This document shows, in pieces, positions 2,418 to 17,447 of a DNA stretch of 35,020 nucleotides (the first letter of the stretch is position 1; every line of letters begins with the position of its first letter). Source of the stretch: Lentimicrobium sp. Lineage in GTDB: Bacteria > Bacteroidota > Bacteroidia > Bacteroidales > Lentimicrobiaceae. Where the stretch lies: the NCBI GenBank assembly GCA_019429275.1, contig JAHYJC010000046.1:1-35020 (forward strand). The letters are read 5' to 3'. The position numbers and the translations under genes are program-made. A model generated the notes under the pieces. The model was given only the letters and a program-made list of their open reading frames with translations. It did not search any database and was not told the origin of the DNA.

Positions 2418-2546
2418 GCCAACATCGTGTATAAAACATTGGGGTTTAAGTGGTTAATTCAATCGTTCTGCCCCGCATCGGCGTTTGTGGCGGCGGATAG
2501 GAACGAAGCCCGCAATCCCCAACGTTTAATACACGCAACCGTTGGC
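2418..2546 (+). repeat. attC-like imperfect palindrome, site B
   Basis: Outer arms GCCAAC (2418-2423) and GTTGGC (2541-2546) are perfect complements. Next, CGTGTAT (2426-2432) pairs with ATACACG (2529-2535), and TTGGGG (2439-2444) pairs with CCCCAA (2517-2522). The right end reads CACGCAACCGTTGGC, matching the right ends of sites A and C. It lies 12 bases after the Nim-like gene, in the same orientation as the other sites. Confidence 0.65.
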
Positions 2547-2708
2547 AACAAGTGTAAAAAGACAGACGAGCAGACAGATACGATATTGACAAAATTAAAA
2601 TAAGAAAGGATTTAGCTTTTTGACAGGACAGTGCAAATTTGATGGAAATTTATTTTGTTTTTTTCTTCCCCCGCAAAAAAAGAAGAAAGAAACCCCACCC
2701 ACATTGCA

Positions 2709-2763
2709 GCACATTTGCAAGCCCCACGAGCCAACGCTCAAAACCAAAGCTTGCAAAAGAGCT
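2709..2763 (+). repeat. Hairpin repeat, copy 2
   Basis: TTGCAAGC and GCTTGCAA form a perfect 8-bp stem around a loop of about 27 bases containing AGCCAACGCTC. It is closely related to copies at 1053-1106 and 14309-14364, and lies upstream of the hsdM promoter. Confidence 0.75.
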
Positions 2764-2795
2764 GCAATTTTGCTTACGCACCCGTGCTAAATTGT

Positions 2796-2803
2796 TACTT
2801 TTG
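2796..2803 (+). promoter_or_regulatory. Bacteroidota-type -7 box (TACTTTTG) upstream of hsdM
   Basis: TACTTTTG fits TAnnTTTG and lies 33 bases before the hsdM ATG. A TTTG at 2769-2772 could be the -33 element, although the 23-base gap is a little long. It probably drives the whole six-gene operon. Confidence 0.5.
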
Positions 2804-2836
2804 AGAAATGAATAAACGAATTGGAATTAAGATATA

Positions 2837-4909
2837 ATGCAAGGAAAACAACTTAGAAAATTAGAAGCTGAACTTTGGAGAGCAGCCGACCAGTTAAGAG
2901 CAAACAGTAAACTGACAGCAACGGAATATTCGATGCCTGTTCTCGGATTGATTTTTTTGAGACATGCTTACAACCGTTTTCAGAAAGTAAAAATTGAAGT
3001 TGAGAAAACCTTGCCATCGCATCCTCAAAGAGGCAAACGACCTTTGACCAAAAAGGATTTTGAAGAGCAAAATTCAATGTTCTTACCTGAGAAATCTCAG
3101 TTTGATTATTTGGTATCATTGCCCGAAAGTGCCGACATTGGCGAAGCCATTGACAACGCAATGAAACTGATTGAGGACGAATACGACAACCTCAAAGGGG
3201 TTTTGCCCAAGAACTTTTCCATTTTCAGTAAAGACCTTTTGCGGGAATTGCTCCGCATTTTCAATAAAGAAGTATTGCAAAAAGCTGAAGGCGATTTGTT
3301 CGGAAAGATATATGAATATTTCCTTGGCAAATTTGCCATGACAGGAGCTCAAGAAGGCGGAGAGTTTTTTACACCTATGAGTTTGGTGCAAACCATTGTA
3401 AATGTAATTGAACCAGACCACGGTATTGTATTTGACCCTGCCTGCGGCAGTGCGGGTATGTTTGTTCAAACAGGTTATTTCATAGAAAGCGAAGGACTGA
3501 AACCCGCCGAAAAAGTTACGTTTTACGGACAAGAAAAAGCCGACCTCAATACCAAACTGGCAAAGATGAACTTAACCGTTCACGGACTGGAAGGTAATAT
3601 ACAAGAAGGAAATACTTTTTACGAAGATAAACACAACCTTGTGGGTGGTGCTGACTTTGTTATGGCAAATCCACCGTTTAATGTGGATGGTGTGGACAAA
3701 GCCAAAGATGCCGTAAAGAAAGACCTTCGTTTGATGATAGACGGCAAAGTAAACCTGCCGAAAAACGACAACGCCAATTATTTGTGGATTCAGTATTTCT
3801 ATAACTATCTAAAACCAACAGGCAGAGCGGGTTTTGTAATGGCTTCGTCTGCCAGCGATGCTGGGCATAGCGAAAAGGACATTCGGGAAAAATTAGTTAA
3901 AACTGGTGCAGTTGATGTGATGATGGCTATTGGCAACAACTTTTTCTATACCCGTTCATTGCCTTGCACACTATGGTTTTTTGACAGAGCAAAAGAGCAA
4001 GATATTGAAAGAAAAGACAAAGTGTTGATGCTCGATGCCCGAAAAATTTACCGCAAGGTAACCAGTAAGGTAAACGACTTTAGCCCCGAGCAATTGCAAA
4101 ACCTCATTTGCATTGTAAACCTGTACAGAGGCAATATCCAAAAATTTGAAAGTACCGTAAAAAGATATTTGCAAATTTCTGCCGACTTAGCAAAAGAAAC
4201 AGCCAAAGCAACAACCGAACTGCAAAAGCAATTACAAAAGGTAATGAAAACTGTTTGTGATTTTGCAACCAAATACGCTAAAGAAAACAAAGAGGCACAA
4301 GCCTTTGTAGATGCCCTGAACATAGAAGAAACCGCAAGCATTTACGAGCAGCAAAACAAACTGATTGCCGAAGCGAAGAAGGCAAAACCCAACATTGAAG
4401 TTTTAGAAAGTATTGCCCACTTGTGCAAAGCACTTCGCAAACCACAAGATAAATTAATTAAACAATTGCTTGATGCTATTAGCACAGCAGCAAAAGAATA
4501 CCAACTAAACAAAAACAAAGACTGGAAAGAGTTGAACCTAAAAGAACAACTCGACCAACTGAAAGCCCTGCAACAGCAACTTAGTGGCAACCCCGATGAA
4601 GACGAATTGGGTTTATTGCACGAAACAGAATATTTCTATAAACAGGCTCATTGGCTTACAAGCCGTTTCCCCGAAGGTATTTACACCGATGTGGAAGGGC
4701 TTTGCAAAGTAGTAACCCAAGCAGAAATTGAAGCCAAAGACTGGAGCCTAAGCCCAGGCAGATATGTAGGTGTAGACACCGCCACCGATGATGATTTTGA
4801 TTACGAAGAACGCCTGAACGAAATACACATTGAGTTGGAAGGATTAAACGAAGAAGCAATTTCTTTGGCTAAAACTATTTCTGAAAACTTTAAAGAGTTG
4901 GCGATATGA
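2837..4909 (+). CDS. hsdM: Type I restriction-modification methyltransferase subunit HsdM
   Basis: Modification subunit of a type I complex (HsdM2S, or R2M2S with HsdR), methylating adenine at the site chosen by HsdS. The N-terminal helical HsdM domain starts at LRKLEAELWRAADQLR. Cofactor motif I is FDPACGSAGMF at about residue 198 and catalytic motif IV is NPPF at about 278. At 690 residues it is longer than the common size of about 500. The extra length is a lysine/glutamine-rich, helix-forming region at about 430-600, probably coiled coil, lying before a conserved C-terminal segment with SLSPGRYVGVD. The ATG overlaps nothing upstream. The stop overlaps the hsdS start by four bases (ATGA), indicating translational coupling. 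Confidence 0.95.
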   Translation: MQGKQLRKLEAELWRAADQLRANSKLTATEYSMPVLGLIFLRHAYNRFQKVKIEVEKTLPSHPQRGKRPLTKKDFEEQNSMFLPEKSQFDYLVSLPESADIGEAIDNAMKLIEDEYDNLKGVLPKNFSIFSKDLLRELLRIFNKEVLQKAEGDLFGKIYEYFLGKFAMTGAQEGGEFFTPMSLVQTIVNVIEPDHGIVFDPACGSAGMFVQTGYFIESEGLKPAEKVTFYGQEKADLNTKLAKMNLTVHGLEGNIQEGNTFYEDKHNLVGGADFVMANPPFNVDGVDKAKDAVKKDLRLMIDGKVNLPKNDNANYLWIQYFYNYLKPTGRAGFVMASSASDAGHSEKDIREKLVKTGAVDVMMAIGNNFFYTRSLPCTLWFFDRAKEQDIERKDKVLMLDARKIYRKVTSKVNDFSPEQLQNLICIVNLYRGNIQKFESTVKRYLQISADLAKETAKATTELQKQLQKVMKTVCDFATKYAKENKEAQAFVDALNIEETASIYEQQNKLIAEAKKAKPNIEVLESIAHLCKALRKPQDKLIKQLLDAISTAAKEYQLNKNKDWKELNLKEQLDQLKALQQQLSGNPDEDELGLLHETEYFYKQAHWLTSRFPEGIYTDVEGLCKVVTQAEIEAKDWSLSPGRYVGVDTATDDDFDYEERLNEIHIELEGLNEEAISLAKTISENFKELAI

Positions 4910-6045
4910 AGTGGGAATTAAAAACACTTAATGAGTTAGGATATGTTGGTAGGGGCAAGTCAAGGCATCGGCCAAGAAACGCAGAACATCTATATGGAGG
5001 TATTTATCCACTTATTCAAACAGGTGATATTCAAAAGGCAAATTTCTATATTACTGAGTATTCACAAACATATAGTGAAGATGGACTAGCCCAAAGTAAA
5101 TTGTGGAATCAAGGAACAATGGTTATTTCTATTGTTGGAGCGAACACAGCAGAAACTGCTATTCTTGGATTTGACGCTTGTTTCCCTGATAGTGTAATTG
5201 GCTTTATTCCTGATAAACAGAAAGCTGACGTTAAATTTGTAAAATACAATTTAGAATACCTAAAAAGTCATTTAAAAAGCATTTCCGAAGGGACAGCGAG
5301 AGAGAATTTGAGTCTTGAGAAATTACTATCAATTAAAATTCCAACTCCACCTTTAAATATTCAACAAAAAATATCATCAATTTTAACTGGTTATGATGAT
5401 TTGATTGAGACCAATTTGAAGCGTATAAAATTGTTGGAGGAAAAATTGATGATTGAGTATTCTTTTTTGGAAGATGAATCTAAAAATCTTAAAGAGTATG
5501 AATTTTCAAATTTTGTAACATTTATTAAAGGTATAGAGCCTGGCAGTGAAAGCTATTTATCTGAGAGATTAGAAGGAACAATACCGTTTATCAGGGTTGG
5601 TGATTTAAGTAAAAGAAATTCGGAAATATTTATTGAGCAAAACAAATCAAAAGGTATTATCTGTAATCCTAATGATGTCTTAATTTCAATGGATGGGACA
5701 GTAGGGATTGTAAGATATGGCCTTTGCGGGTGCTACTCATCTGGTATTCGTAAAGCTGTTTCAAATGGAGTTTTGAATAACGCATTTATTTTTTGCTACC
5801 TATCATCCAGTAAAATTCAAGGTGTAATTTATTCTCACTCTAAGGGTTCGACAATACAGCACGCAGGTAGTTCAATAAATCATTTTAAAATTAAACTACC
5901 GAAAGAATTTTCTTTAGAAAATTTCATTAGGCTTTCAAATCCAATTTACGATTTAATGAAAAATCTGTTAATGCAAAACATAAAACTTAGAGAGGCACGA
6001 GATATTTTATTACCCAAATTAATGAACAGACAAATAGAAGTATAA
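4906..6045 (+). CDS. hsdS: Type I restriction-modification specificity subunit HsdS
   Basis: DNA-recognition subunit that sets the target of the HsdM/HsdR complex. It has two target-recognition halves. The first ends with PTPPLNIQQKISSIL followed by the helical spacer DLIETNLKRIKLLEEKL (about residues 145-180). The second ends with the spacer near LREARDILLPKLMNRQIEV at the C-terminus. The 379-residue length fits a complete two-domain HsdS. The recognition sequence cannot be predicted by eye. It starts inside the hsdM stop codon and ends four bases before the OLD-type gene, so it sits in the middle of a coupled operon. Confidence 0.93.
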   Translation: MKWELKTLNELGYVGRGKSRHRPRNAEHLYGGIYPLIQTGDIQKANFYITEYSQTYSEDGLAQSKLWNQGTMVISIVGANTAETAILGFDACFPDSVIGFIPDKQKADVKFVKYNLEYLKSHLKSISEGTARENLSLEKLLSIKIPTPPLNIQQKISSILTGYDDLIETNLKRIKLLEEKLMIEYSFLEDESKNLKEYEFSNFVTFIKGIEPGSESYLSERLEGTIPFIRVGDLSKRNSEIFIEQNKSKGIICNPNDVLISMDGTVGIVRYGLCGCYSSGIRKAVSNGVLNNAFIFCYLSSSKIQGVIYSHSKGSTIQHAGSSINHFKIKLPKEFSLENFIRLSNPIYDLMKNLLMQNIKLREARDILLPKLMNRQIEV

Positions 6046-6049
6046 AATT

Positions 6050-7864
6050 ATGAGATTAAAAGAAGTTACAATACATAATTTCAGAGGTTATTCAAGCCGA
6101 ACAACTTTGCCTATAGACAAGTGTATTACTGGTTTTGTTGGCAAAAACGACAATGGGAAATCGAGCATCCTCGAAGCTTTGGCAGTTTTCTTTAACTGTG
6201 ATTCCGTTTCTTTAGAAAAAGACGATTTTTATATAGGCCAGCCGAATTGCTTGATTGAAATTACATGTACGTTTGACAATCTGCCCGCAGAAGTTGTTAT
6301 TGACGAAACAAATCCCACAAATTTGGCTGATGAACATCTGCTAAATGTGAATGGGGAATTGCAAATTAAAAAGGTTTATAAAAGAACCCAGTTAAAAGCA
6401 CCAACTGTATTTGTTGTTTCTCAACACCCGACAACTGAAAACTATAACGACCTTCATAAACTCGATTTGAAAGGGTTAAAAGCGAGGGTTGCTCAATTAA
6501 CCGTAAATGCTGATGCAATTGATGATAAAAGAAGAAGCGCTTCATGGAGAAATTCAATTTGGAATCATTGTGATGAACTTAGAATTGAAAATGTTGATTT
6601 AGATATTAGTGAATTTGCTGGCGATTCAAAAAAACTACAAGAAAAAATTCAGTCGCTCCTACCATTATTTGAAATATTTAAAGTAGATAGAGAAAATAAA
6701 GATAACGACCCTGTTGCAAAATCACCACTACAAGAAGCAGTTGACTTAGCAAAAAAAGAATTTTCTGACCGTATTTTACAATTAGAGCAAGAAATTAAGG
6801 ATAAGGTTATTGAAAGAGCAAATCTTACAATTGAAAAGCTCAAAGAAATGGATTCTTCGCTTGCTCAGGCATTATCACCAAAATTTAAATCACCGCCCAA
6901 ATGGTCATTTGATTTTTCAATTGATGGCGACGATGGAGTTCCGATAAATAAAAGAGGTAGCGGTGTAAAGCGTTTGATTTTATTAAACTTTTTCAGAGCG
7001 GAAGCAGAAAGAAAAGTAGCTTCACAAAATGCACCTTCTGTAATTTATGCTTTTGAAGAACCTGAAACTTCTCAACATCCCAATTATCAAGAAATGCTAA
7101 TTGAGGCATTTATAAGATTAGGACAAAAAGATAACTGTCAGGTATTACTCACAACCCACGTTCCAGCTTTAGGAGCAATGCTTCCAATTGAAGGGTTACG
7201 CTTAGTAAGAAAAACAGAACATGGGCCAATTGTAGAATATGGGAATGACGATATTATAGAGGAAATTGCCAAAACACTTGGAGTTTTGCCTGACCCAATT
7301 CCTAAAGGTGCACAAGCATTATTACTTGTTGAAGGTCCGGGAGATGTTGTTTTTTTTAAACATACATCAGAATTATTAAAGCAAAACGGACATATTCCCC
7401 ATTCGTTTGCCGAAAAAAATATTGCACTTGTAATAATGGGTGGTTGTGGTACTTTAAAGCATTGGCGGACAAAAAAAATTGCAGAGCAATTTGAAGTTCC
7501 ATACGGTGTATTTTTAGATGCAGACTTAACTAACCCAGTAAACTCACGTGTTAATAATGAACACATAACCGAACTAAGAGCGGAAGGCAAGAAAGCACAC
7601 ACAACAAAGAAAAATGAAATTGAGAATTATCTTGATGTAGCTGTTCTTGGCTTGCCTGCGGGGACAGTAAATATTACAGACACAAGTGATGCAAAGAAAG
7701 ACATTGCAAATGCAAAGCAAGTTCGACCGACAGAAGTAATGGAAAGATACTGGCCTTTAATGACAATAGAACAAATCCGTGCAAGTGAAATGTTTAACGA
7801 TGGCGTAAATTATAGATTTGAGTTAACTGAAATAATAAGTGACTTTTTAACAATGGTTCCATGA
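6050..7864 (+). CDS. OLD-family ATP-dependent endonuclease (ABC-type ATPase plus TOPRIM)
   Basis: A 604-residue protein with an SMC/ABC-like ATPase followed by a TOPRIM nuclease domain. The Walker A motif GKNDNGKSS is at residues 31-39. The segment SGVKRLILLNFFRAEAE probably contains the signature helix, and Walker B is FEEPETSQHP at about 335-344, followed by LLTTHVPALG. The TOPRIM acidic residues are seen in LLVEGPGD (Glu about 428) and FLDADL (Asp about 490 and 492). Families of this type (OLD, GajA, Ptu-like ATPases) act in phage defence and DNA-end processing. It lies four bases after hsdS, and its stop overlaps the next start (ATGA). It resembles GajA of Gabija in layout, but the neighbouring helicase is RecQ-like rather than UvrD-like. 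Confidence 0.9.
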   Translation: MRLKEVTIHNFRGYSSRTTLPIDKCITGFVGKNDNGKSSILEALAVFFNCDSVSLEKDDFYIGQPNCLIEITCTFDNLPAEVVIDETNPTNLADEHLLNVNGELQIKKVYKRTQLKAPTVFVVSQHPTTENYNDLHKLDLKGLKARVAQLTVNADAIDDKRRSASWRNSIWNHCDELRIENVDLDISEFAGDSKKLQEKIQSLLPLFEIFKVDRENKDNDPVAKSPLQEAVDLAKKEFSDRILQLEQEIKDKVIERANLTIEKLKEMDSSLAQALSPKFKSPPKWSFDFSIDGDDGVPINKRGSGVKRLILLNFFRAEAERKVASQNAPSVIYAFEEPETSQHPNYQEMLIEAFIRLGQKDNCQVLLTTHVPALGAMLPIEGLRLVRKTEHGPIVEYGNDDIIEEIAKTLGVLPDPIPKGAQALLLVEGPGDVVFFKHTSELLKQNGHIPHSFAEKNIALVIMGGCGTLKHWRTKKIAEQFEVPYGVFLDADLTNPVNSRVNNEHITELRAEGKKAHTTKKNEIENYLDVAVLGLPAGTVNITDTSDAKKDIANAKQVRPTEVMERYWPLMTIEQIRASEMFNDGVNYRFELTEIISDFLTMVP

Positions 7865-9876
7865 CCCGAAATGAAGCCGAAATACAATTACAAAAACTGT
7901 TTGGATTCAAGCAGTTCTTTGACTTGCAATGGCAGGTAATTGAAAACCTGTTGGCAGGAAAGCGTGTGTTGTTTATTGAAAAAACTGGTTTTGGAAAATC
8001 ATTGTGCTTTCAGTTTCCTGCCACCCAATTGCAAGGGGTTACCATTGTGTTTTCTCCCCTAATTGCTTTAATGCGTGACCAGGTGCGTAGTATGCAGGAG
8101 AAAGGCATTCGTGCTTCTGCTATCAATTCCAATCAGGAAGATTTAGAAAATGCCACCATCATTGCAAAGGCACAAAATAACGAACTGGATATTCTTTACA
8201 TTGCTCCTGAACGCATGGAGAATGCAACATGGATAACAGCTGCAAGGGAAATGAAAATTGCAATGGTGGTAATTGACGAGGCTCATTGTATTTCTATGTG
8301 GGGACAAAGTTTCCGACCAAATTATCGAAGGATTGTGAACCTTGTAAGGTTATTACCAAAGAATTTTCCGGTATTGGCAACTACTGCAACGGCCACACCA
8401 AGAGTTCAGGAAGATATAATTGAACAGGTTGGAACTGATTTAATTCCAATAAGGGGACAATTGTTACGGTCAAACATACGCTTGTTTGTAGTAACACTGC
8501 AAAGTGAAGATGAGAAATTCTTTTGGTTAGCGGAATATTTTCCCAAACTAAAGAAAACCGGCATTGTCTATACCGGAACACAAGCGAACACAGACATTTT
8601 TTCCAACTGGTTACAATTCCTGAAATTTAACTCGGCAGCTTACAGCGGTCGTTTGGATGCGGAAAGTCGAATGCGGGTAGAAACCGATTTTATCAACAAT
8701 AAATACGATTGCGTAGTTTCCACCAATGCGTTGGGCATGGGCATTGATAAACCCGATATTCGATTCATCATTCATACCCAAATTCCACAATCTCCAATAC
8801 ACTATTATCAGGAAATTGGCCGTTCGGGCAGAGATGGTCAGGAAGCCTTTGCCATACTGTTGTACAATCCAAACGCAGACCAAGAATTACCGAGAAGTTT
8901 TATAGATGGAAGCAAGCCTTCGGTATCAAAATACGAAAAGGTAATTGCAGTAACTAAAAAAGCTTTGTTAGGCAGAAATGAAATCATCAAAGCTACAAAT
9001 TTAAAACAAACACAGGTAAGCGTAATTCTGGCGGATTTAATTGACCAAAAAATTATCAATGAGCAAATTGTTGGTAAAAGTAAAAAGTATTTCTTCAACC
9101 CAGATGCACCAGCTTTAGACCTTTCGGCGTTTGAAATATTGAGAAATGCACAAAATCAGGAATTAGATAGGATGCTTGAATATACTGGCATTACTTCGTG
9201 TAGAATGCAGTATTTATGCAATTACTTGGGTGATGTAAGACAAGGTACTTGTGGTGTTTGTGATATTGATTCACGTCAGCATATGCGTGTAGTAGTTTCA
9301 GATGCCATGAAACAGAAATTACAGGAATTCAGGGAAACATTTTTTCCTGTTTTGGAAGTGGAAACCCAGCGTAGCAATATTATCAATGGTGTGGCTGCTT
9401 CTTATTACGGTGTTTCCAATGTGGGTGCTGCATTGAGGCATTCCAAATACGAAGGTGGTGGAGATTTTCCCGATTGGCTTTTGCGCTTAACATTAAAAGC
9501 GTTTAGAAAATACTATGGAGACCTAAAGATTGATATGATTGTATATGTTCCACCAACCGAATCAGGAGCTTTAGTGAAAAACTTTGCAGAGAAAGTATCT
9601 TCGGTTCTAAAAATTCCAATTTCTCATAAATTAGTTAAATCTTCTGCAACAGAACCTCAAAAGGTTTTTCAAAGTGGCATATCGAAAAAAGACAATGTGC
9701 ATGGAAAATTTATATATCAAAATTCTGAGGAGATTGTTGGAAAAAGTATTTTATTAGTTGATGATATTTTCGATAGTGGTTATACTATCAAGGAAATAGG
9801 TCAATATTTAACAAACATAGGTGCAGTAAAAATTGCTCCTTTAGTAATTGCAAGAACCGTAGGTGGTGATATTTAA
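7861..9876 (+). CDS. RecQ-family helicase fused to a phosphoribosyltransferase-like domain
   Basis: A superfamily 2 3'-5' DNA helicase in its first two thirds. It has a variant Walker A, KTGFGKS (residues 41-47), where RecQ normally has TGGGKS. DEAH in VIDEAHCISMWGQ is at 139-142, and motif VI is QEIGRSGRDG. A RecQ zinc-binding cysteine set follows (CRMQYLC with CGVCD, about 445-467). There is no HRDC domain. Instead, residues about 500-671 form a type I phosphoribosyltransferase-like domain with a PRPP loop, LLVDDIFDSGYT, at about 631-642. The acidic pair and DSGYT loop are intact, so PRPP or nucleotide binding is plausible. Overlaps on one side and a 10-base gap on the other tie it to the OLD-type and DprA-like genes. 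Confidence 0.88.
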   Translation: MTRNEAEIQLQKLFGFKQFFDLQWQVIENLLAGKRVLFIEKTGFGKSLCFQFPATQLQGVTIVFSPLIALMRDQVRSMQEKGIRASAINSNQEDLENATIIAKAQNNELDILYIAPERMENATWITAAREMKIAMVVIDEAHCISMWGQSFRPNYRRIVNLVRLLPKNFPVLATTATATPRVQEDIIEQVGTDLIPIRGQLLRSNIRLFVVTLQSEDEKFFWLAEYFPKLKKTGIVYTGTQANTDIFSNWLQFLKFNSAAYSGRLDAESRMRVETDFINNKYDCVVSTNALGMGIDKPDIRFIIHTQIPQSPIHYYQEIGRSGRDGQEAFAILLYNPNADQELPRSFIDGSKPSVSKYEKVIAVTKKALLGRNEIIKATNLKQTQVSVILADLIDQKIINEQIVGKSKKYFFNPDAPALDLSAFEILRNAQNQELDRMLEYTGITSCRMQYLCNYLGDVRQGTCGVCDIDSRQHMRVVVSDAMKQKLQEFRETFFPVLEVETQRSNIINGVAASYYGVSNVGAALRHSKYEGGGDFPDWLLRLTLKAFRKYYGDLKIDMIVYVPPTESGALVKNFAEKVSSVLKIPISHKLVKSSATEPQKVFQSGISKKDNVHGKFIYQNSEEIVGKSILLVDDIFDSGYTIKEIGQYLTNIGAVKIAPLVIARTVGGDI

Positions 9877-9886
9877 AAAATTTGAA

Positions 9887-11059
9887 ATGAACGAATACAT
9901 TGACAAAACATATTGGATTGCGGTAGCTCATTTACCCAAGTGGACTACAGAAAGAACAAACCGCTTTATTATTCAGATAATCCACGAAAATAAAATGTCA
10001 TGGGCTGATTTTTTTGAACTGGATAAAAAGGGTTGGAAGGAAATATTTGCCTTTACTGAAAAGGAATTGACCGACTTGGAATATGCCAAGAATGATATGC
10101 CCCGCCTTGCTTTTATAGCAGAACAGTTGCAAAACGAGGGCTTTCAAATCATCCCTATTAACTCGCCTGATTATCCAGTTGTGTTGAAGGAAAATTTGAA
10201 AATCAAAAGTTCACCGCCTGTTTTGTATATCAAAGGCAGAAAAGGTTTGCTTCAGGAAGATGCAGTGGCCATTGTAGGTTCAAGAAAAGCCGGAGCAAAG
10301 GCACTTGAATTTACAGACCATGTTGCTAAAAAAAGCGTGAAAGAATTTAAAGTTGTTGTAAGCGGGTTTGCCAAAGGTGTTGACAAACAAGCATTGGACA
10401 GCACTATTGAAGCCAATGGGAAAAGCATTATTGTTTTACCACAAGGAATTCTCACTTTCCAGTCTGGCTTTAAAAAATATTACGAACCCATTGTAAATGG
10501 GGATGTTTTAGTATTAAGTACATTTTTCCCAAAAGCTGGTTGGGCCGTTGGCTTGGCAATGGCAAGAAATGCTTATATATACGGATTAGCAAAGGAAATA
10601 TATGTTGCAGAATCAGACAGTAAGGGCGGTACTTGGGAAGGTGCTATGGATGGATTGAAGCGACAACGTAAAATTTATGTCAGATATCCTGAATCAAAGG
10701 AGAAGAATGCTAATTTAAAATTGGTTGAATTAGGTGCATTATCTGTAAACATGGATGGAGAAATTGTAGATTCAAAGGTAATGCCCTCAAAGGAGTTATT
10801 TGAACCTGTGTCTAAAAATGAAGTTAGCGAACCATCTGCGACTTATGAGGATGGTAAACGAAATATTGAAAAAGATATACTTGAATTATTAAACAAAGGC
10901 ACATACACAACGAAGGAAATATTATTGGCCTTGAAATTAGATTGGGATAGCAGAAAACTAACAAGTTTTTTAAAGAAGAACCCCAATATAAAAGCCATAG
11001 CAGGAAAACCAGCAAAGTTCACCCGAAACGATGTGATATCACCTTCATTATTTGGATAA
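9887..11059 (+). CDS. DprA/Smf-like Rossmann-fold protein
   Basis: DprA proteins bind single-stranded DNA and load RecA; relatives in conflict systems are predicted nucleotide or DNA binders. The core is recognisable: VAIVGSRKAGAKALEF (about residues 126-141), VVVSGFAKGVDKQAL (about 156-170), SIIVLPQGI, and a late ARNAYIYGLAKEIYVAES with a GGTWEGA loop. An N-terminal helical part (1-110) precedes this, and a C-terminal winged-helix-like stretch is visible (DILELLNKGTYTTKEILLAL). ATG 9887 is preferred over GTG 9863/9866, which would overlap the RecQ gene. Its position in a restriction operon rather than a competence locus suggests a defence role. It could work with the PRTase domain encoded immediately upstream. 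Confidence 0.87.
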   Translation: MNEYIDKTYWIAVAHLPKWTTERTNRFIIQIIHENKMSWADFFELDKKGWKEIFAFTEKELTDLEYAKNDMPRLAFIAEQLQNEGFQIIPINSPDYPVVLKENLKIKSSPPVLYIKGRKGLLQEDAVAIVGSRKAGAKALEFTDHVAKKSVKEFKVVVSGFAKGVDKQALDSTIEANGKSIIVLPQGILTFQSGFKKYYEPIVNGDVLVLSTFFPKAGWAVGLAMARNAYIYGLAKEIYVAESDSKGGTWEGAMDGLKRQRKIYVRYPESKEKNANLKLVELGALSVNMDGEIVDSKVMPSKELFEPVSKNEVSEPSATYEDGKRNIEKDILELLNKGTYTTKEILLALKLDWDSRKLTSFLKKNPNIKAIAGKPAKFTRNDVISPSLFG

Positions 11060-11060
11060 C

Positions 11061-14000
11061 ATGACTTGGGAATATTCAGAAGATAATTTAATAGAACAAA
11101 CAGCGATAGATTTATTTCACAATCAATTGGGCTGGGATACTGCTATTGCATACAACAAAGAAACATTTGGCGAGGGCAGTACGCTGGGCAGACTGAACAA
11201 AAAAGAAGTTGTACTGAAACGAATTTTCTTTGAAAAAATCAAAGAGTTTAATCCTAACCTACCAGAACAAGCCTATAACCAAGCAAACGAAAAACTGACA
11301 GAAGAAAGTATTACCAAGTCATTAGCTGAAATTAATTTTGAGAAACACCAATTGCTCCGCAATGGTATTCCAGTTGACTTCATCAACGAAAAAGGCGAAC
11401 AAGTAAAAAACAAAACGCTAAAGATTTTCGACTTTGATAATGCTGACAACAACAACTTTTTAGCCGTTCGACAACTGTGGATTCAGGGCAAAAGCAACCG
11501 AGAACGCAGACCCGATATTATAGGTTTTGTGAATGGTATTCCGCTTCTGTTCATAGAATTGAAAGCAGCACACCGAAAATTAGAAAACGCCTACAACGAT
11601 AATTTCACCGATTACAAAGACGTAATTCCAAAACTCTTTTATTACAACGCTTTTGTAATGTTGAGTAACGGAATAGAAAGCCGCATTGGAAGTGTTACTG
11701 GCAAATATCAGCACTTTCACGAATGGAAACGCATCACCGAAGAAGACGAAGGCATAGTTGCCTTAGATAGAATTATTGTTGGTGTTTGCGAAAAGAAACG
11801 CTTTTTAGATTTGTTTGAGAACTTCATTTTGTTTGATAATTCATTGGGCAAAGTAGTAAAACTTATTGCCCGTAACCATCAGTTTATTGGTGTAAACAAA
11901 GCCATTGAAAACATACAGCATAAAGAACAACTCTACAAACTGGGCAAAATCAGTTTGGAAGAAAAACAAAAACTTGGGGTGTTTTGGCATACGCAAGGAA
12001 GTGGGAAATCGTATTCAATGGTTTTCTTCTGCCAAAAAATACATCACAAATTTACAGGTAGTTATACTTTTCTGATTGTTACCGACCGAAACGAATTAGA
12101 TACACAGATTTACGGCACATTCAGCGGAATTGGTGCAGTTCCGCAAATAAAATCGGGTTCAAAAGATTCATTGAAAGCCAACAGCGGAAAGCATTTGAAA
12201 GAATTATTGAGTTCGGAACACCGCTATTTATTTACACTGATTCATAAATTCAACTTTGAAGAAGAAATAACAAAACGGGATAATATCATTGTCATTTCAG
12301 ACGAAGCACACCGAACACAAGGCGGAAATTTAGCAATGAATTTGCGTAATGCCTTGCCAAACGCTTCATTTATTGGCTTTACTGGAACACCACTTTTCAA
12401 AGATGATGAAATTACCAAGCGGATTTTTGGTGATTATGTTTCCCGATACGACTTTAAACGAAGTGTTGATGATGGTGCAACCGTTCCACTATACTACGAA
12501 AACAGAGGCGAGTATTTAGGGTTGAAAAATCCTGTTATCAATGACCAAATAAGAGCCGTAATAGATGCCGAAAGCGAAGATTTAGACAGCGACCAACGTA
12601 GTAGAGTTGAACAACTTTTTGCACGTGAATATCCGATACTTACCGCCAAGAAACGATTAGAAGCTATTGCCAAAGATGCAGTTTGGCATTTCTGCAACCG
12701 TGGCTACAAAGGCAAAGGAATGTTTATCGCATTGGATAAACTCACAGCCGTAAGAATGTATGATTTAATTACACATCATTGGAAACTGACCGTTGAACAA
12801 TTGGAAAAAGAAGTTTCCAAAGGGAAATATGGCGACCAGGAATTACTGGAGAAAAGCCGAGAACTACAATGGATTAAAGAAACGGAAATTTGTGTAGTAG
12901 TAAGTTCGGAGCAAAATGAAATTCAGAAATTTCAGAAATGGGATTTAGACATTGAACCACATCGGGAGAAAATGAACACCCAAGACCTTGAAACGAGGTT
13001 TAAAGACGAGGACGACCCTTTCCGTTTTGTAATTGTTTGTGCAATGTGGATTACAGGTTTTGACGTGCCCACCCTCTCAACTTTGTATTTAGACAAGCCT
13101 TTAAAATCACATACTTTAATGCAAGCCATTGCAAGAGCCAACCGAATAAGTGAAGGTAAAAACAATGGGTTAATCGTCGATTATATTGAAACTTATACTG
13201 CTTTATTGGATGCTTTGGCTATTTACGGTTCTGGCGGTGATGAAGGGGGAAACGGTGGAGACGAAAAACCCGAACCACCTGTAAAACCGAAGGAAGAACT
13301 AATCAAGCAATTAGAAGAAGCACTAGAGGCAACCGAAACTTTTTTACAAGACGAAGTAAATTTTGATTTGCAGGAATTAATCAAAGCAGATGGTTTACAC
13401 AAATTAGCTGCAATGGAAAAGGCGGTAAATGCAGTTTACACCAATGATGAAACCAAACGTAAATTTCAGATTTTAGCAAGAGAGGTTTTTAAGAAATATA
13501 AAGCCCTGCAACCTGACAAAGTATTGAATCAATATGCTTCAAGAAAAAATGCTATTGATTTTATCTACTCTGCAATTGAGAACAATGTAGAAAGTGCAGA
13601 TGTTGCCGACATAATGAAAAAAATTCAAGCCGTTGTTGATGAATCAATAGAAAATATGGTTGCCGAACCAAGCCACAACGAAGAGAAAATAATTGACCTG
13701 AGCGGATTAAATTTTGAATTATTGGAGCAGTACTTTTTGAAAACAAAGAATAAAAATACTGTTGTTCAGTCGCTCAAAGACAAGATTGAAAAGCAATTAA
13801 AACAAATGGTTGAACGAAATCCTTTGACAGTTGATTATTACAAACGCTATCAGGAAATCATTGAAGAATACAACAGAGGAAAGGACGAAGTTGTAATAAA
13901 AGAGACTTTCAGAAAACTGATTGAACTTGTAAACTCGTATTCAGAAGAAGAAGCCGACACCAAACGTGAAGGCTTGACAGACGAACAGAAAGCAATTTTC

Positions 14001-14291
14001 GATATTCTGAGACAAGGTAAAAAACTTGAAGAAAAAGAAAAGAACGAGATAAAGAAAATTTCGATTGAGCTACTTGAAGAATTGAAAAAAGAAAAATTAA
14101 GAATTGACCAATGGGCTGATAAATCAGTAACAGCAGCAGCAGTTTTTAACTATGTAAACAAAACGCTTTTTGAAGTTTTGCCTTATCCAACTTATCAGAC
14201 AGATGATATTGATTTAAGGACAAATTTAGTTTATGAACACTTGAAGCATCAATATTTCGGAGGAGGAATGAGCATTTATGGACGATATTAG
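11061..14291 (+). CDS. hsdR: Type I restriction-modification motor/endonuclease subunit HsdR
   Basis: ATP-driven translocase and nuclease of the type I complex. An N-terminal PD-(D/E)xK nuclease is visible: RRPDIIGF (Asp about 152) and FIELKA (Glu about 166, Lys about 168). The helicase core has Walker A QGSGKS at about 312-317, DEAH in ISDEAHRTQ at about 414-417, GFTGTPLF as motif III, and ARANRISEGKNNGLIVDY as motif VI. A long helical C-terminal region (about 720-1075) mediates complex assembly in this family. ATG 11061 follows the DprA-like stop by one base; an in-frame TTG at 11052 would overlap it. About 1076 residues is the normal size. Three other genes separate it from hsdMS, yet spacing shows one operon. 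Confidence 0.95.
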   Translation: MTWEYSEDNLIEQTAIDLFHNQLGWDTAIAYNKETFGEGSTLGRLNKKEVVLKRIFFEKIKEFNPNLPEQAYNQANEKLTEESITKSLAEINFEKHQLLRNGIPVDFINEKGEQVKNKTLKIFDFDNADNNNFLAVRQLWIQGKSNRERRPDIIGFVNGIPLLFIELKAAHRKLENAYNDNFTDYKDVIPKLFYYNAFVMLSNGIESRIGSVTGKYQHFHEWKRITEEDEGIVALDRIIVGVCEKKRFLDLFENFILFDNSLGKVVKLIARNHQFIGVNKAIENIQHKEQLYKLGKISLEEKQKLGVFWHTQGSGKSYSMVFFCQKIHHKFTGSYTFLIVTDRNELDTQIYGTFSGIGAVPQIKSGSKDSLKANSGKHLKELLSSEHRYLFTLIHKFNFEEEITKRDNIIVISDEAHRTQGGNLAMNLRNALPNASFIGFTGTPLFKDDEITKRIFGDYVSRYDFKRSVDDGATVPLYYENRGEYLGLKNPVINDQIRAVIDAESEDLDSDQRSRVEQLFAREYPILTAKKRLEAIAKDAVWHFCNRGYKGKGMFIALDKLTAVRMYDLITHHWKLTVEQLEKEVSKGKYGDQELLEKSRELQWIKETEICVVVSSEQNEIQKFQKWDLDIEPHREKMNTQDLETRFKDEDDPFRFVIVCAMWITGFDVPTLSTLYLDKPLKSHTLMQAIARANRISEGKNNGLIVDYIETYTALLDALAIYGSGGDEGGNGGDEKPEPPVKPKEELIKQLEEALEATETFLQDEVNFDLQELIKADGLHKLAAMEKAVNAVYTNDETKRKFQILAREVFKKYKALQPDKVLNQYASRKNAIDFIYSAIENNVESADVADIMKKIQAVVDESIENMVAEPSHNEEKIIDLSGLNFELLEQYFLKTKNKNTVVQSLKDKIEKQLKQMVERNPLTVDYYKRYQEIIEEYNRGKDEVVIKETFRKLIELVNSYSEEEADTKREGLTDEQKAIFDILRQGKKLEEKEKNEIKKISIELLEELKKEKLRIDQWADKSVTAAAVFNYVNKTLFEVLPYPTYQTDDIDLRTNLVYEHLKHQYFGGGMSIYGRY

Positions 14292-14877: not shown

Positions 14878-16170
14878 GTGAAGACGATACATAAAATAAT
14901 AAATGGAGACAGCCGACAGATGAATCTTGTCCCCGACAAGTCTGTTCATTTAGTCATAACCTCGCCACCTTATTGGCAGCTAAAAGACTATGGAACAGAA
15001 AATCAAATAGGCTATCACGAAGATTATGAAACCTATATTAATAACCTCAATCTTGTTTGGAAGGAATGTTTTCGGGTTCTTGACAATGGTTGCAGACTAT
15101 GTGTAAATATAGGCGACCAATTTGCAAGAGCTGTTTATTATGGACGTTATAAAGTTATTCCAATCCGAACTGAAATAATCAAATTCTGTGAAAGCATTGG
15201 GTTTGATTATATGGGGGCTATCATTTGGCAAAAGCAAACCACAACAAATACAACAGGTGGAGCATCATTAATGGGAAGTTTTCCGACACCAAGAAATGGA
15301 ATTCTCTCTATTGACTATGAGTTTATTTTAATTTTTAAAAAATTAGGCACTTCCAAATCAAAGGTAAGCAAAGAGATAAAAGAACAATCTAAAATGACTA
15401 CCGAAGAATGGAAAGAATATTTCGCAGGTCATTGGAATTTTGGTGGGGCAAGACAAGATGGACACATCGCAATGTTTCCAGAAGAGTTGCCTAAGAGACT
15501 AATAAAAATGTTTGCTTTTAAAGGCGAAACCGTTTTAGATCCATTTATGGGTAGTGGAACAACCTCTTTGGCTGCAAGGAATTTAGAAAGGAATTCAATT
15601 GGATATGAAATAAATCCTGAATTCATTGAAATTGCAAAGGACAAATTAAATATTAGGCAATCTGATATTGCAGGAACAACTTATGAGTTTCTAAAGGACG
15701 AAATCAACATCGACATAGAAGATGAGTTTGAGAACTTACCTTATCGCTTTGTTGATTTCCAAAACCTTGACAAGAAGATAGACCCAAAGAAACTTCAATT
15801 TGGTTCAAAAATCGATAAAAATAGTGGGCAGCGAGAAGATTACTATACAGTAAAAGAAGTTATAAGTCCAGAGTTGGTAAAACTTAATAATGACCTTATT
15901 GTAAGACTAATTGGAGTTAAAGAAAAGAAAAGTGCAAATGGTTCAGCCAAACAGTTTTTATTCGACAAGACAAAAGGACAAAAGGTTTTTATGAAATATG
16001 ACAACCAAAAATATGATGAGCAGAATAATTTAATGTGTTACTTGTATTTAAAGAATAAAACTTTTTTGAATGCTCACCTAATTAAGGAAGGATTAGTCGA
16101 ACCCGACACGGAAGCAGATTTTAAATACAAAAACAAGTTTTTAAGTTTAAACACATCAAATGGCGAATAA
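14878..16170 (+). CDS. Site-specific DNA methyltransferase (beta class, N4-cytosine type) with SNase-like C-terminal domain
   Basis: Motif IV is TSPPYWQLKDYG (SPPY at residues 29-32), the form typical of N4-cytosine enzymes. Motif I is DPFMGSGTT at about 221-229, which follows motif IV as in the beta class. The start is a GTG; NGDSR directly after it matches the usual family beginning. Residues about 300-430 look like a staphylococcal-nuclease (OB) fold: VRLIGVKEK, FLFDKTKGQKVFMKYD, YDEQNNLMCYLYL and LNAHLIKEGLVEP. The Arg of VRLIG is kept, but the Glu and the Arg expected in GEEA and YGR are replaced (NGSA, QNN). The domain therefore probably binds rather than cuts. The gene overlaps the next by 11 bases. 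With a MjaI-type nuclease two genes on, a CTAG-like target is possible but unproved. Confidence 0.9.
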   Translation: MKTIHKIINGDSRQMNLVPDKSVHLVITSPPYWQLKDYGTENQIGYHEDYETYINNLNLVWKECFRVLDNGCRLCVNIGDQFARAVYYGRYKVIPIRTEIIKFCESIGFDYMGAIIWQKQTTTNTTGGASLMGSFPTPRNGILSIDYEFILIFKKLGTSKSKVSKEIKEQSKMTTEEWKEYFAGHWNFGGARQDGHIAMFPEELPKRLIKMFAFKGETVLDPFMGSGTTSLAARNLERNSIGYEINPEFIEIAKDKLNIRQSDIAGTTYEFLKDEINIDIEDEFENLPYRFVDFQNLDKKIDPKKLQFGSKIDKNSGQREDYYTVKEVISPELVKLNNDLIVRLIGVKEKKSANGSAKQFLFDKTKGQKVFMKYDNQKYDEQNNLMCYLYLKNKTFLNAHLIKEGLVEPDTEADFKYKNKFLSLNTSNGE

Positions 16171-16813
16171 TTATTGGCTTGAGCAAGAGAAAAAATTTCT
16201 AAAAGCCATCGAAAATGTTGATGTGCCAAACGAAAAATTAGACAATGTAGATTTCATTGATTTGAAATCACATCAAGATTTGGGAAATATTGGCGTTGGT
16301 GGTGGATGTTATTGGATATGGACTAATGAGCCAGTTATTCATTCTTTGCATAAGAACCCAATCCCAAAACCTTTTGATAATGGTGAATTAATATACAATG
16401 GTATTGCCAAGGACGATGTAAAAGGAAGGGTTTTTCATCATCTTTTCGGATTTGAAGATGCGGGTTGGTCGGGTATAAGTATTGATATATACACGAAAGC
16501 ATCAAATAGTCATAGAAAAAAGGCTTGTTCACCAAATGGCAAAGTACCTTTCATCAATAATTCCCCAATAAGAAATAAGGAACAACTTTTGAAATTGCAC
16601 CTTACCCAAGAAGAAAAAGAATTTATTAACAACAGCGAGCAAAGCGTCTTTCATTTTAGAAATGGAATAAACTTAAATGACGAGAAACATAAGGATTTCA
16701 AGTTTAGGGTTTACTTCATAACAGGTCTTACAAGCCTTTATCTTGAACACATTGAAAAAGAATGGCGTAAAAATGGATTACCTAAACTTTGTTCCTATTT
16801 AACCGGTAGATAG
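16160..16813 (+). CDS. GIY-YIG-type nuclease, probable restriction endonuclease
   Basis: A 217-residue protein with GIY-YIG landmarks: GCYWIWTN (residues 49-56) as the GIY half, LIYNGIA (78-83) as the YIG half, and KGRVFHHL with a candidate catalytic Arg at 90. Late in the sequence, LEHIEKEWRKNGLPKLCSY carries a candidate metal-binding Glu at about 196. Several restriction enzymes (Eco29kI and Hpy188I types) use this fold. It sits between the methyltransferase (11-base overlap) and the MjaI-type gene (one-base gap), so it is an integral operon member. Whether it cuts DNA itself or assists the MjaI-type enzyme cannot be told. Confidence 0.7.
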   Translation: MANNYWLEQEKKFLKAIENVDVPNEKLDNVDFIDLKSHQDLGNIGVGGGCYWIWTNEPVIHSLHKNPIPKPFDNGELIYNGIAKDDVKGRVFHHLFGFEDAGWSGISIDIYTKASNSHRKKACSPNGKVPFINNSPIRNKEQLLKLHLTQEEKEFINNSEQSVFHFRNGINLNDEKHKDFKFRVYFITGLTSLYLEHIEKEWRKNGLPKLCSYLTGR

Positions 16814-16814
16814 T

Positions 16815-17447
16815 ATGGCTAAAGAATGGATTTTAAATAGTGCGATGAATCGCTTCCAACTGAACTTCAAAAGAAATGTTGGTCCAACATCAGAAAGTAT
16901 CAGACAATGTGAACCAAAAACTTTGGAAGAGTGGAGAGAATACTATTTCTCAAATGTGCGTTCCAAAGACCACATAATTGACCTTGGCAAAAAACTCTAC
17001 ATTAAGATAACAGAAGTCATTTCAGCAGAAGTTGAAGAAATCACCGAACAAGATTGCATTGACTATATGCTTCAACTTGTTATCGACAGAACCTTTGATG
17101 GTTATTGGACTGAAATAAAAACAATTTATGGTCAACTTGAGCAGGAACTGGGTTACAAAATTGAGCCAGCACCAGACAAGTGGGACAGACTTTTTAATGT
17201 TGACTTCTTCATCAAAATTAAAGAAAGATTTATTGGATTGCAGATAAAGCCAGTTAATCAAGGAATTCAACTATCTCAAATTTTCAAAGAAAAAGGTTTA
17301 CAACAAAAGACACACGAAAAATTTGAGAAAGACTTCGGTGGAAAGGTATTTTACATTTTCTCATCCAAAGCAAACGGAAAAAAAGTGATAATGAATCCTG
17401 AAGTTATTGAAGAAATAAGGACTGAAATTCACCGACTTGAACAATAA
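16815..17447 (+). CDS. MjaI-family type II restriction endonuclease
   Basis: A 210-residue protein whose opening EWILNSAMNRFQLNFKRNVG, then CEPKTLEEWREYYF and DLGKKLYIKI, matches what I recall of the MjaI endonuclease family, whose founder cuts CTAG. A PD-(D/E)xK-like centre is visible with Asp 130 (FNVDFF) and GLQIK (Gln 143, Lys 145). Gln in place of Glu occurs in other restriction enzymes. It is the last gene of the three-gene operon, is followed nine bases later by palindrome site D, and has an N4-cytosine-type methyltransferase as the likely protective partner. The family call is from memory. Confidence 0.68.
   Translation: MAKEWILNSAMNRFQLNFKRNVGPTSESIRQCEPKTLEEWREYYFSNVRSKDHIIDLGKKLYIKITEVISAEVEEITEQDCIDYMLQLVIDRTFDGYWTEIKTIYGQLEQELGYKIEPAPDKWDRLFNVDFFIKIKERFIGLQIKPVNQGIQLSQIFKEKGLQQKTHEKFEKDFGGKVFYIFSSKANGKKVIMNPEVIEEIRTEIHRLEQ

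Follow-up and report, generated by a model that had tools for sequence, protein, structure and literature searches.

A probably mobile type I restriction-modification operon of Lentimicrobium with a probable exchange slot for defence modules between hsdS and hsdR

Results

Six genes in line at the hsd locus

The stretch of DNA considered here, hereafter the window, comprises the 35,020 nucleotides of contig JAHYJC010000046.1 (positions 1 to 35,020, forward strand) of a Lentimicrobium sp. of the Bacteroidales (GenBank assembly GCA_019429275.1). At 2837-14291, on the plus strand, it carries six open frames head to tail, namely hsdM, hsdS, a gene for an OLD-type protein, a gene joining a RecQ-like helicase to a phosphoribosyltransferase (PRTase), a dprA-like gene and hsdR (Table 1). 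We propose that this locus is a horizontally moving type I restriction-modification (RM) operon in which the interval between hsdS and hsdR serves as a slot where complete defence modules are exchanged, a reading to which we would give about three chances in four. The six-gene order and the domain assignments of the initial annotation were borne out by the open frames and by domain search.

The type I parts are complete, with HsdM, an HsdS with two specificity domains, and an HsdR with a nuclease N-terminus and a SWI2/SNF2 motor. All five solved chains matched by HsdR are of the EcoR124 type, which we take to be type IC. The genes are closely packed: hsdM and hsdS overlap by 4 bases, hsdS and the OLD gene are separated by 4, and the OLD and RecQ-PRTase genes overlap by 4. 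The RecQ-PRTase and dprA-like genes overlap by 14 bases with the listed GTG start, or leave a gap of 10 with a possible ATG at 9887, and the dprA-like gene and hsdR overlap by 8 bases with the listed TTG, or leave a gap of 1 with an ATG at 11061, the latter being the likely start of hsdR. The spacing of at most 10 bases claimed in the initial annotation thus holds with the ATG starts at 9887 and 11061 (overlaps of at most 4 and gaps of at most 10 bases) and fails with the listed GTG (overlap of 14). Judged by this spacing, co-transcription of the six genes is likely. In a motif scan, promoter-like matches (29 vs 35.2 +/- 6.1) and terminator-like matches (13 vs 10.3 +/- 3.5) stood at chance level. 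Homology to relatives upstream of hsdM begins at 2546 in L028, at 2626 in L156 and at 2754 in L027.

Table 1. Features of the operon in the window.
Feature	Positions	Strand	Length (aa)	Matches and remarks
Upstream stretch, possible promoter region	2546..2836	+		similar in some relatives by nucleotide homology
hsdM, type I methyltransferase	2837..4909	+	690	PF02384 1.3e-75, PF12161 2.8e-18; PADLOC MTase_I 5.2e-243
hsdS, specificity subunit	4906..6045	+	379	PF01420 1.7e-30, two stretches (two specificity-domain matches)
Predicted OLD-type nuclease, slot module 1	6050..7864	+	604	ABC ATPase + TOPRIM; PF13175 3.9e-67, PF20469 2.5e-6
psyrT, predicted toxin, slot module 2	7861..9876	+	671	PADLOC PsyrT 8.2e-247, full length
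psyrA, DprA-like, predicted antitoxin, slot module 2	9863..11059	+		PADLOC PsyrA 2.5e-83; PF02481 9.7e-38
hsdR, motor and nuclease subunit	11052..14291	+		PF04313, PF18766, PF22679, PF11867; TIGR00348 5.3e-143

The RecQ-PRTase and DprA-like pair

By its sequence, the RecQ-PRTase and DprA-like pair is the known toxin-antitoxin pair PsyrTA, of the RqlHI/ShosTA type. The predicted toxin PsyrT fuses a RecQ-like helicase (PF00270, PF00271, PF16124) to a PRTase domain (PF00156), and its phosphoribosyl pyrophosphate (PRPP)-binding motif (D634, D635, D638, S639, G640) is invariant in 14 aligned sequences. The PADLOC PsyrA match covers residues 35-379 of the DprA-like protein, which also matches 9vzo, the solved DprA-like antitoxin ShosA. 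Statements on articles cited here by PMC number refer to the portions of their text available to us. RqlHI and PsyrTA share the combination of a RecQ-PRTase with a DprA-like partner (PMC4670107; PMC9122126), and ShosTA consists of a PRTase and a DprA-like protein (PMC9122126). In RqlH-RqlI the PRTase domain is toxic, altered PRPP-binding residues remove most of the toxicity, and the DprA-like partner restrains the toxin (PMC4670107); a pair of DprA and PRTase confers protection from T7 and lambda (PMC9122126). The words 'hsd' and 'restriction' are absent from the main text of PMC4670107, and the available account of ShosTA and PsyrTA in PMC9122126 does not place the pair in an hsd operon, unlike the window. 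A reading of the two genes as displaced housekeeping recQ and dprA was rejected, other RecQ-like helicases and one weak DprA-like match being present elsewhere in the genome; the best two of these helicases are 38% identical across the helicase part.

PsyrT relatives were taken from an alignment scan of genome contigs, of which the best 80 of 378 were kept, and the proteins of the window served as BLASTP queries (E 1e-6) for hsd and OLD genes nearby, so that distant families may be missed. PsyrA adjoins PsyrT in 79 of the 80 loci, the exception being L059. An hsdR on the same strand, at most 2 kb after the pair, was found in 8/16 of the closest PsyrT loci (67-97% identity) vs 1/64 of the others (Fisher p 4e-6, with kinship between loci still in the counts). 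The RecQ-DprA pair is thus associated with hsdMSR repeatedly, in half of its closest relatives and, in the same order, in E. coli (see below). In 71/80 PsyrTA loci hsdR was not found within 2 kb, and an OLD relative was found in 0/80, within flanks of up to 10 kb, several of them much shorter; the stretch ends about 300 bases after psyrA in L036 and L042, and 1.2-1.6 kb after it in L035 and L039. On viral contigs, 40 matches to the PsyrT pattern were obtained, and none among the matches listed extends beyond query residue 469 of 671. In L033 (5326-13194), a PsyrTA 85% identical to that of the window is immediately preceded by two genes, one for a methylase (type II/III models) and one that weakly matches type III restriction.

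The OLD-type protein

The product of the third gene is, from its sequence and predicted fold, a lone OLD-type nuclease. It has an ABC ATPase domain and the acidic TOPRIM residues (E428, D432, D490 and D492, invariant in 11 aligned sequences), and the next gene encodes the RecQ-PRTase and not a UvrD-type helicase. We take such lone OLD nucleases to be those named class 1. The nearest solved structure is the OLD nuclease 6p74 of Thermus scotoductus, by sequence and by fold; in the comparison of the predicted model (mean pLDDT 78.8) it is followed by GajA, with low TM-scores of 0.35-0.40. The two proteins are alike in ABC ATPase and TOPRIM, and differ in that the window's protein is encoded inside an hsd operon and shares 17% identity, at a TM-score of 0.35-0.40, in the fold alignment. 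Two other assignments were rejected. PARIS was suggested by the best PADLOC name, AriA, yet the match covers residues 1-372, the ATPase half only; among the ten proteins scanned AAA_15 was present and a match to DUF4435 (AriB) absent, and a PARIS entry is not named among the 50 fold matches shown for the model. As for Gabija, the gene after OLD is psyrT and not a UvrD-like gajB, and a Gabija-like nuclease-helicase pair of OLD and RecQ was set aside, as the helicase is part of PsyrTA and accompanies DprA in loci that lack OLD.

Besides that of the window, seven OLD relatives were found in 395 genomes. One lies directly between hsdS and hsdR (L183), one match, to the ATPase half only, lies between hsdM-like and hsdR-like genes (L189), and one is placed between a PglXI-type methylase and a BrxHI-type helicase (L184, 9306-11159); for the remaining four, an hsd match was not found in the stretch examined. 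In 2 of 390 matching plasmid records, those examined, OLD relatives 43% identical stand beside Tn7-like transposition and silver-resistance genes on enterobacterial plasmids (L190, L191). Among 14 OLD relatives on viral contigs, 0 had an HsdS, HsdR, PsyrT or PsyrA match in the stretch examined; one (L193) had a weak HsdM match.

Contents of the hsdS-hsdR interval in relatives

HsdR relatives were surveyed in the phylum (41/395 genomes, E 1e-150) and in one class (23/391, E 1e-220), these genomes partly overlapping. The surroundings of 20 HsdR places, the closest first and then hand-picked distant ones, were examined together with L183. A locus was called readable when the end of hsdS and the start of hsdR were both visible, which held for 14 close-lineage loci (Table 2). 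These 14 slots hold 12 kinds of content, and none is empty (0/14). PDC families M64, S23, S02, S39, S68 and M71 are among the occupants. In L030, where hsdM and hsdS are unrecognised, PsyrTA is followed by a PDC-M64-like trio and then hsdR. Among the loci examined, OLD stands beside PsyrTA in the window only.

Table 2. Genes between hsdS and hsdR in the 14 readable close-lineage loci.
Locus	Found via	Content
Window		OLD + PsyrTA
L027, L028	PsyrT	Kiwa + PsyrTA
L029	PsyrT	McrBC + PsyrTA
L031 (only hsdS end in stretch), L032	PsyrT	PsyrTA alone
L034	PsyrT	PDDEXK_3 protein + PsyrTA
L040	PsyrT	PDC-M64 + PsyrTA
L156	HsdR	PDDEXK_3-like protein + McrBC, without PsyrTA
L157	HsdR	200-residue protein + RhuM-Fic PDC-S23, plus another S23-like piece
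L158	HsdR	PDC-S23
L159	HsdR	Kiwa + PDC-S68
L160	HsdR	PDC-S39 + McrBC-like genes
L162	HsdR	202-residue protein without family

The close HsdR relatives besides the window's own (73% identity or more; range 73-97%) number eight, and PsyrTA stands beside hsdR in 0/8 of these loci found via HsdR, L140 and L161 being cut by contig ends. Two of the genomes with a close HsdR (G023, G180) carry a more distant PsyrT elsewhere (59% and 56%). Distant HsdR loci (40-50%) with readable ends number 11 (L163-L169, L171, L172, L174, L183), of which 8 are filled; L170 and L173 were left out of the slot counts because hsdM was unrecognised. Among plasmids, 2186 records matched HsdR, of which 15 were listed and 5 examined; genes occupy the interval in 5/5, in L246 on the other strand. 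Genes are also present between hsdM and hsdS in L029, L156, L158, L160 and L162. In L158 (10445-12937) and L162 (13423-15957), hsdM encodes about 840 residues vs 690, with about 450 extra bases in the same place.

Breakpoints and hsd-edge copies

Along the operon, the outer genes are nearly constant, the inner modules differ, the homology changes at gene borders, and pieces of hsd genes are found in four slots. Compared with L027 and L028, HsdM is 95%, HsdR 94-96% and PsyrT 95.5-96.6% identical, and OLD is replaced by Kiwa; HsdR of L156 is 97% identical to that of the window. In BLASTN comparisons of the operon with its relatives, homology blocks start and stop at gene borders. The hsdM block ends near the hsdM-hsdS border, and within hsdS mostly two stretches stay alike, at about 5362-5444 and 5974-6046. 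In 7/7 matching loci (L027, L028, L029, L032, L040, L156, L162) homology stops at most 15 bases from the hsdS stop (6045). It resumes at the psyrT start, 7861, in L027, L028, L029, L030 and L034, and at 7875 and 7876 in L040 and L032, respectively, or at the hsdR start, 11057-11061, in L156, L157, L158, L159 and L162, and at 11072 in L160.

A search with profiles of the first 120 bases of hsdR and the last 75 bases of hsdS returned displaced copies of these edges. A copy of the hsdR 5' end lies between McrC and psyrT in L029 (52 bases, E 7e-11), between psyrA and the PDC-M64-like trio in L030 (107 bases, E 1e-24) and, as a weaker match, between DUF4411 and AbiEi in L161 (36 bases, E 6e-4); a copy of the hsdS 3' end lies between the 200-residue frame and the S23-like piece of L157 (46 bases, E 6e-9). 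An hsdR-like piece in L170 was weak (E 0.007) and was not counted. We read these copies as probable scars of stepwise module gain by recombination at the hsd edges. The order McrBC-hsdR seen in L156 is the order implied by the scar in L029, with a similar McrC-hsdR junction. In L030 (13202-14945) the hsdR start region occurs twice, flanking the trio, and the downstream long copy is interrupted at its start, the listed frame beginning later.

The trees tell of repeated change. In the HsdR tree the window and L028 are sister rows (support 97/84) and other nearby forks are open; PsyrTA presence vs absence requires at least 4 changes, with several forks open. In the PsyrT tree, built from the window's protein together with 29 of the 80 loci and 4 plasmid records (34 rows), hsd-linked vs other rows require at least 5 changes, with several forks open and the plasmid rows on long branches. 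In L040 PsyrT and PsyrA are 71% identical to those of the window and HsdM and HsdR 86-89%, which makes a separate gain or replacement of PsyrTA in that locus probable. Values of dN/dS of 0.04-0.11 against L027 and L028 indicate purifying selection on psyrT, psyrA, hsdM and hsdR. In the stretches examined, homology to L027, L028 and L156 reaches at most 290 bases upstream of hsdM and at most 95 bases past hsdR. Since it ends near the operon edges, the operon seems to be transferred whole between Bacteroidota families.

Placements in E. coli and in BREX operons

The order hsdM-hsdS-RecQ-DprA-hsdR is also found in E. coli, in two records, a plasmid and a chromosome, with RecQ-PRTase 31%, DprA 34% and HsdR 46% identical to the window's proteins. 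The placement of the pair goes beyond chance, as it recurs between hsdS and hsdR both in relatives and in E. coli. On an Acinetobacter plasmid (L253, 7893-11422), a RecQ-PRTase and DprA pair lies between pglX and pglZ of a BREX operon and is followed by a DUF262 gene; L252 is an example of such a module standing alone. Taken together, PsyrTA has reached hsdS-hsdR slots repeatedly, both in Bacteroidota and in E. coli, and has arrived in a BREX operon as well, and by the same gene comparisons OLD and PsyrTA are repeated visitors of methylation-based systems that yet also stand alone.

Surroundings of the operon

Upstream of the operon, the window encodes an N6/N4 DNA methylase (24-1151) and two short frames that share a reading frame and are parted by a stop codon, perhaps one interrupted gene (1311-1877). 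Immediately after the operon, and on its strand, comes a distinct type II RM set (14878-17447). It consists of a DNA methylase, in which a staphylococcal-nuclease-like domain gave a weak match, a protein of 217 residues without family match and an MjaI-type restriction enzyme. Further on, a 1602-residue protein joins a RecQ-like helicase part to a UvrD-like (GajB-type) part (25180-29988).

Discussion

The presence of different modules in the same place among relatives suggests that the gap between hsdS and hsdR behaves like a socket for exchangeable second-line defences. We hypothesise that all six genes of the window are expressed from one transcript and that HsdMSR, as the first line, would cut unmethylated phage DNA. 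OLD could act alone as an ATP-gated nuclease against invader DNA or DNA ends. PsyrA would restrain PsyrT, and a phage that upsets this control, through single strands, loss of the antitoxin or counter-defence, might release the PRTase domain of PsyrT to poison the cell, so that phage spread stops. Modules may enter by recombination at the 3' edge of hsdS and the 5' edge of hsdR, and may be kept because they provide a second line under the operon's own control, rather than as parts of one pathway.

Several observations weigh against this proposal. The profile search returned no scar in the window itself, and the interval is empty in three of the distant loci (L166, L167, L174). The occupancy figures should not be taken for frequencies in a population, since the window and the loci reached via PsyrT make up eight of the 14 readable close loci. 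In E. coli, exchange was not seen: RecQ-DprA and hsdR, at 99% identity or more, are present in 53 each of 5426 complete genomes, and these equal counts suggest that they stay together there. A change of homology at gene borders is also compatible with contact or signalling between the modules and HsdMSR. Finally, the recurrence of PsyrTA and OLD in type I and BREX operons appears to exceed what plain independence would give, which favours a link with methylation-based systems.

Such a link is at the heart of a tentative alternative, in which the slot modules would act as guards. Once the restriction complex is inhibited, by a DNA-mimic anti-restriction protein for instance, they would detect this and bring about death or arrest of the cell, in the manner of PrrC at EcoprrI. 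PrrC, embedded in a type IC hsd locus, answers inhibition of that enzyme, and Ocr inhibits both RM and BREX (PMC12707154; PMC9122126); the occurrence of PsyrTA inside type I RM operons of Bacteroidota and E. coli and between pglX and pglZ, and of an OLD relative between PglXI-type and BrxHI-type genes, would fit such a guard role. However, some occupants are modification-dependent restriction enzymes (McrBC, GmrSD) and not guards, PARIS senses Ocr without needing RM (PMC9122126), and most PsyrTA loci (71/80) have no hsdR found within 2 kb. It could further be speculated, with comparable reserve, that the hsdS-hsdR and pglX-pglZ intervals are dedicated sockets kept open by hsd-edge recombination, whose modules have been selected to answer a blocked methylation complex; PsyrTA and OLD would then be new guards that arrived several times independently.

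It is rather improbable that PsyrTA serves mainly to stabilise a mobile RM operon against loss, with defence secondary. Such a role would suit the toxin-antitoxin nature of the pair and the extent of homology to L027 and L028, which stops no more than about 300 bases from either end of the operon, but the close hsd operons of L159 and L160 have no recognised toxin-antitoxin pair in the slot. Less probable still is the proposal of the initial annotation that OLD, RecQ and DprA form one composite system, processing DNA ends or single-stranded products of HsdR. Each of the three families is active on ends or single strands of DNA, and the tight gene spacing is in keeping with a joint pathway. Nevertheless the trio splits up: OLD is found in 0/80 PsyrT loci (flanks of up to 10 kb), PsyrTA beside hsdR in 0/8 loci found via HsdR (two cut by contig ends), close hsdR loci occur without either, L183 has OLD without PsyrTA, the RecQ-PRTase and DprA proteins match a toxin-antitoxin pair, and unrelated modules fill the same place. 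The co-occurrence of the three genes, which the initial annotation had advised checking, therefore argues neither for a plain chance insertion nor for a fixed set with hsdMSR. Chance clustering in a defence island, with the hsdS-hsdR position meaningless, is the least credible explanation and largely refuted: other RM genes do flank the operon, but placement inside it recurs in distant lineages, hsdR linkage differs between close and other PsyrT loci (8/16 vs 1/64, kinship included) and the genes are under purifying selection.

The hsdS-hsdR slot as such is already known from rlo genes, PrrC and DarTG2, and the window shares this pattern of non-hsd genes in line between hsdS and hsdR; what the exchange-slot reading adds is the contents, the seamless swaps and the scars. 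In Campylobacter hsd loci, hsdR and hsdS are separated by rlo frames, and hsdS and hsdM by mlo frames (Miller et al, 2005, via PMC5183652), likewise extra frames inside an hsd locus, in another lineage. In a type I RM locus of E. coli, the RRDM island, hsdS and hsdR enclose the toxin-antitoxin module DarTG2, and the view that this site is a recombination hotspot for defence systems has been published (Zhang et al, 2025; PMC12255303). The likeness to the window is a toxin-antitoxin module in that place; the differences, as far as the available text of that article goes, are that its toxin is ADP-ribosylating and the module single, whereas the window has PsyrT and an additional OLD module. The RptR-controlled island also has an RptR gene (79 aa) and TAGCTA-type promoter sites, neither of which was found upstream of the window operon: between 2406 and 2836 no open frame exceeds 58 aa, an RptR-sized frame thus being absent, none of the four RptR site forms occurs there, and the single TAGCTA of the window is at 20583. 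EcoprrI offers a further parallel, an accessory gene inside a type IC hsd locus that backs up restriction as a second line. Its product, PrrC, is a nuclease acting on tRNA anticodons (PMC12707154), and none of the three inserted proteins of the window is named PrrC among the library matches shown. Several slot occupants belong to PDC families, which stem from a guilt-by-embedding approach (PMC12988326, citing the preprint of Payne et al, 2024, doi 10.1101/2024.01.29.577857). In the literature searched, with preprints and most subscription journals outside its scope and the articles available in part, no description was found of such scars or of an hsd operon that contains RecQ-DprA or OLD plus PsyrTA.

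On this reading, the puzzling six-gene operon is a case in which whole defence systems, such as Kiwa, McrBC, OLD and PsyrTA, take each other's place within a host system, and the scars offer clues to the order of module exchange. The interval between hsdS and hsdR would be a direct place to look for new defence genes. The operon also raises the testable question of whether embedded modules guard their host system or merely ride along, a question that the E. coli version, whose RecQ-DprA and hsdR each occur in 53 of the 5426 genomes, makes testable in a laboratory organism.

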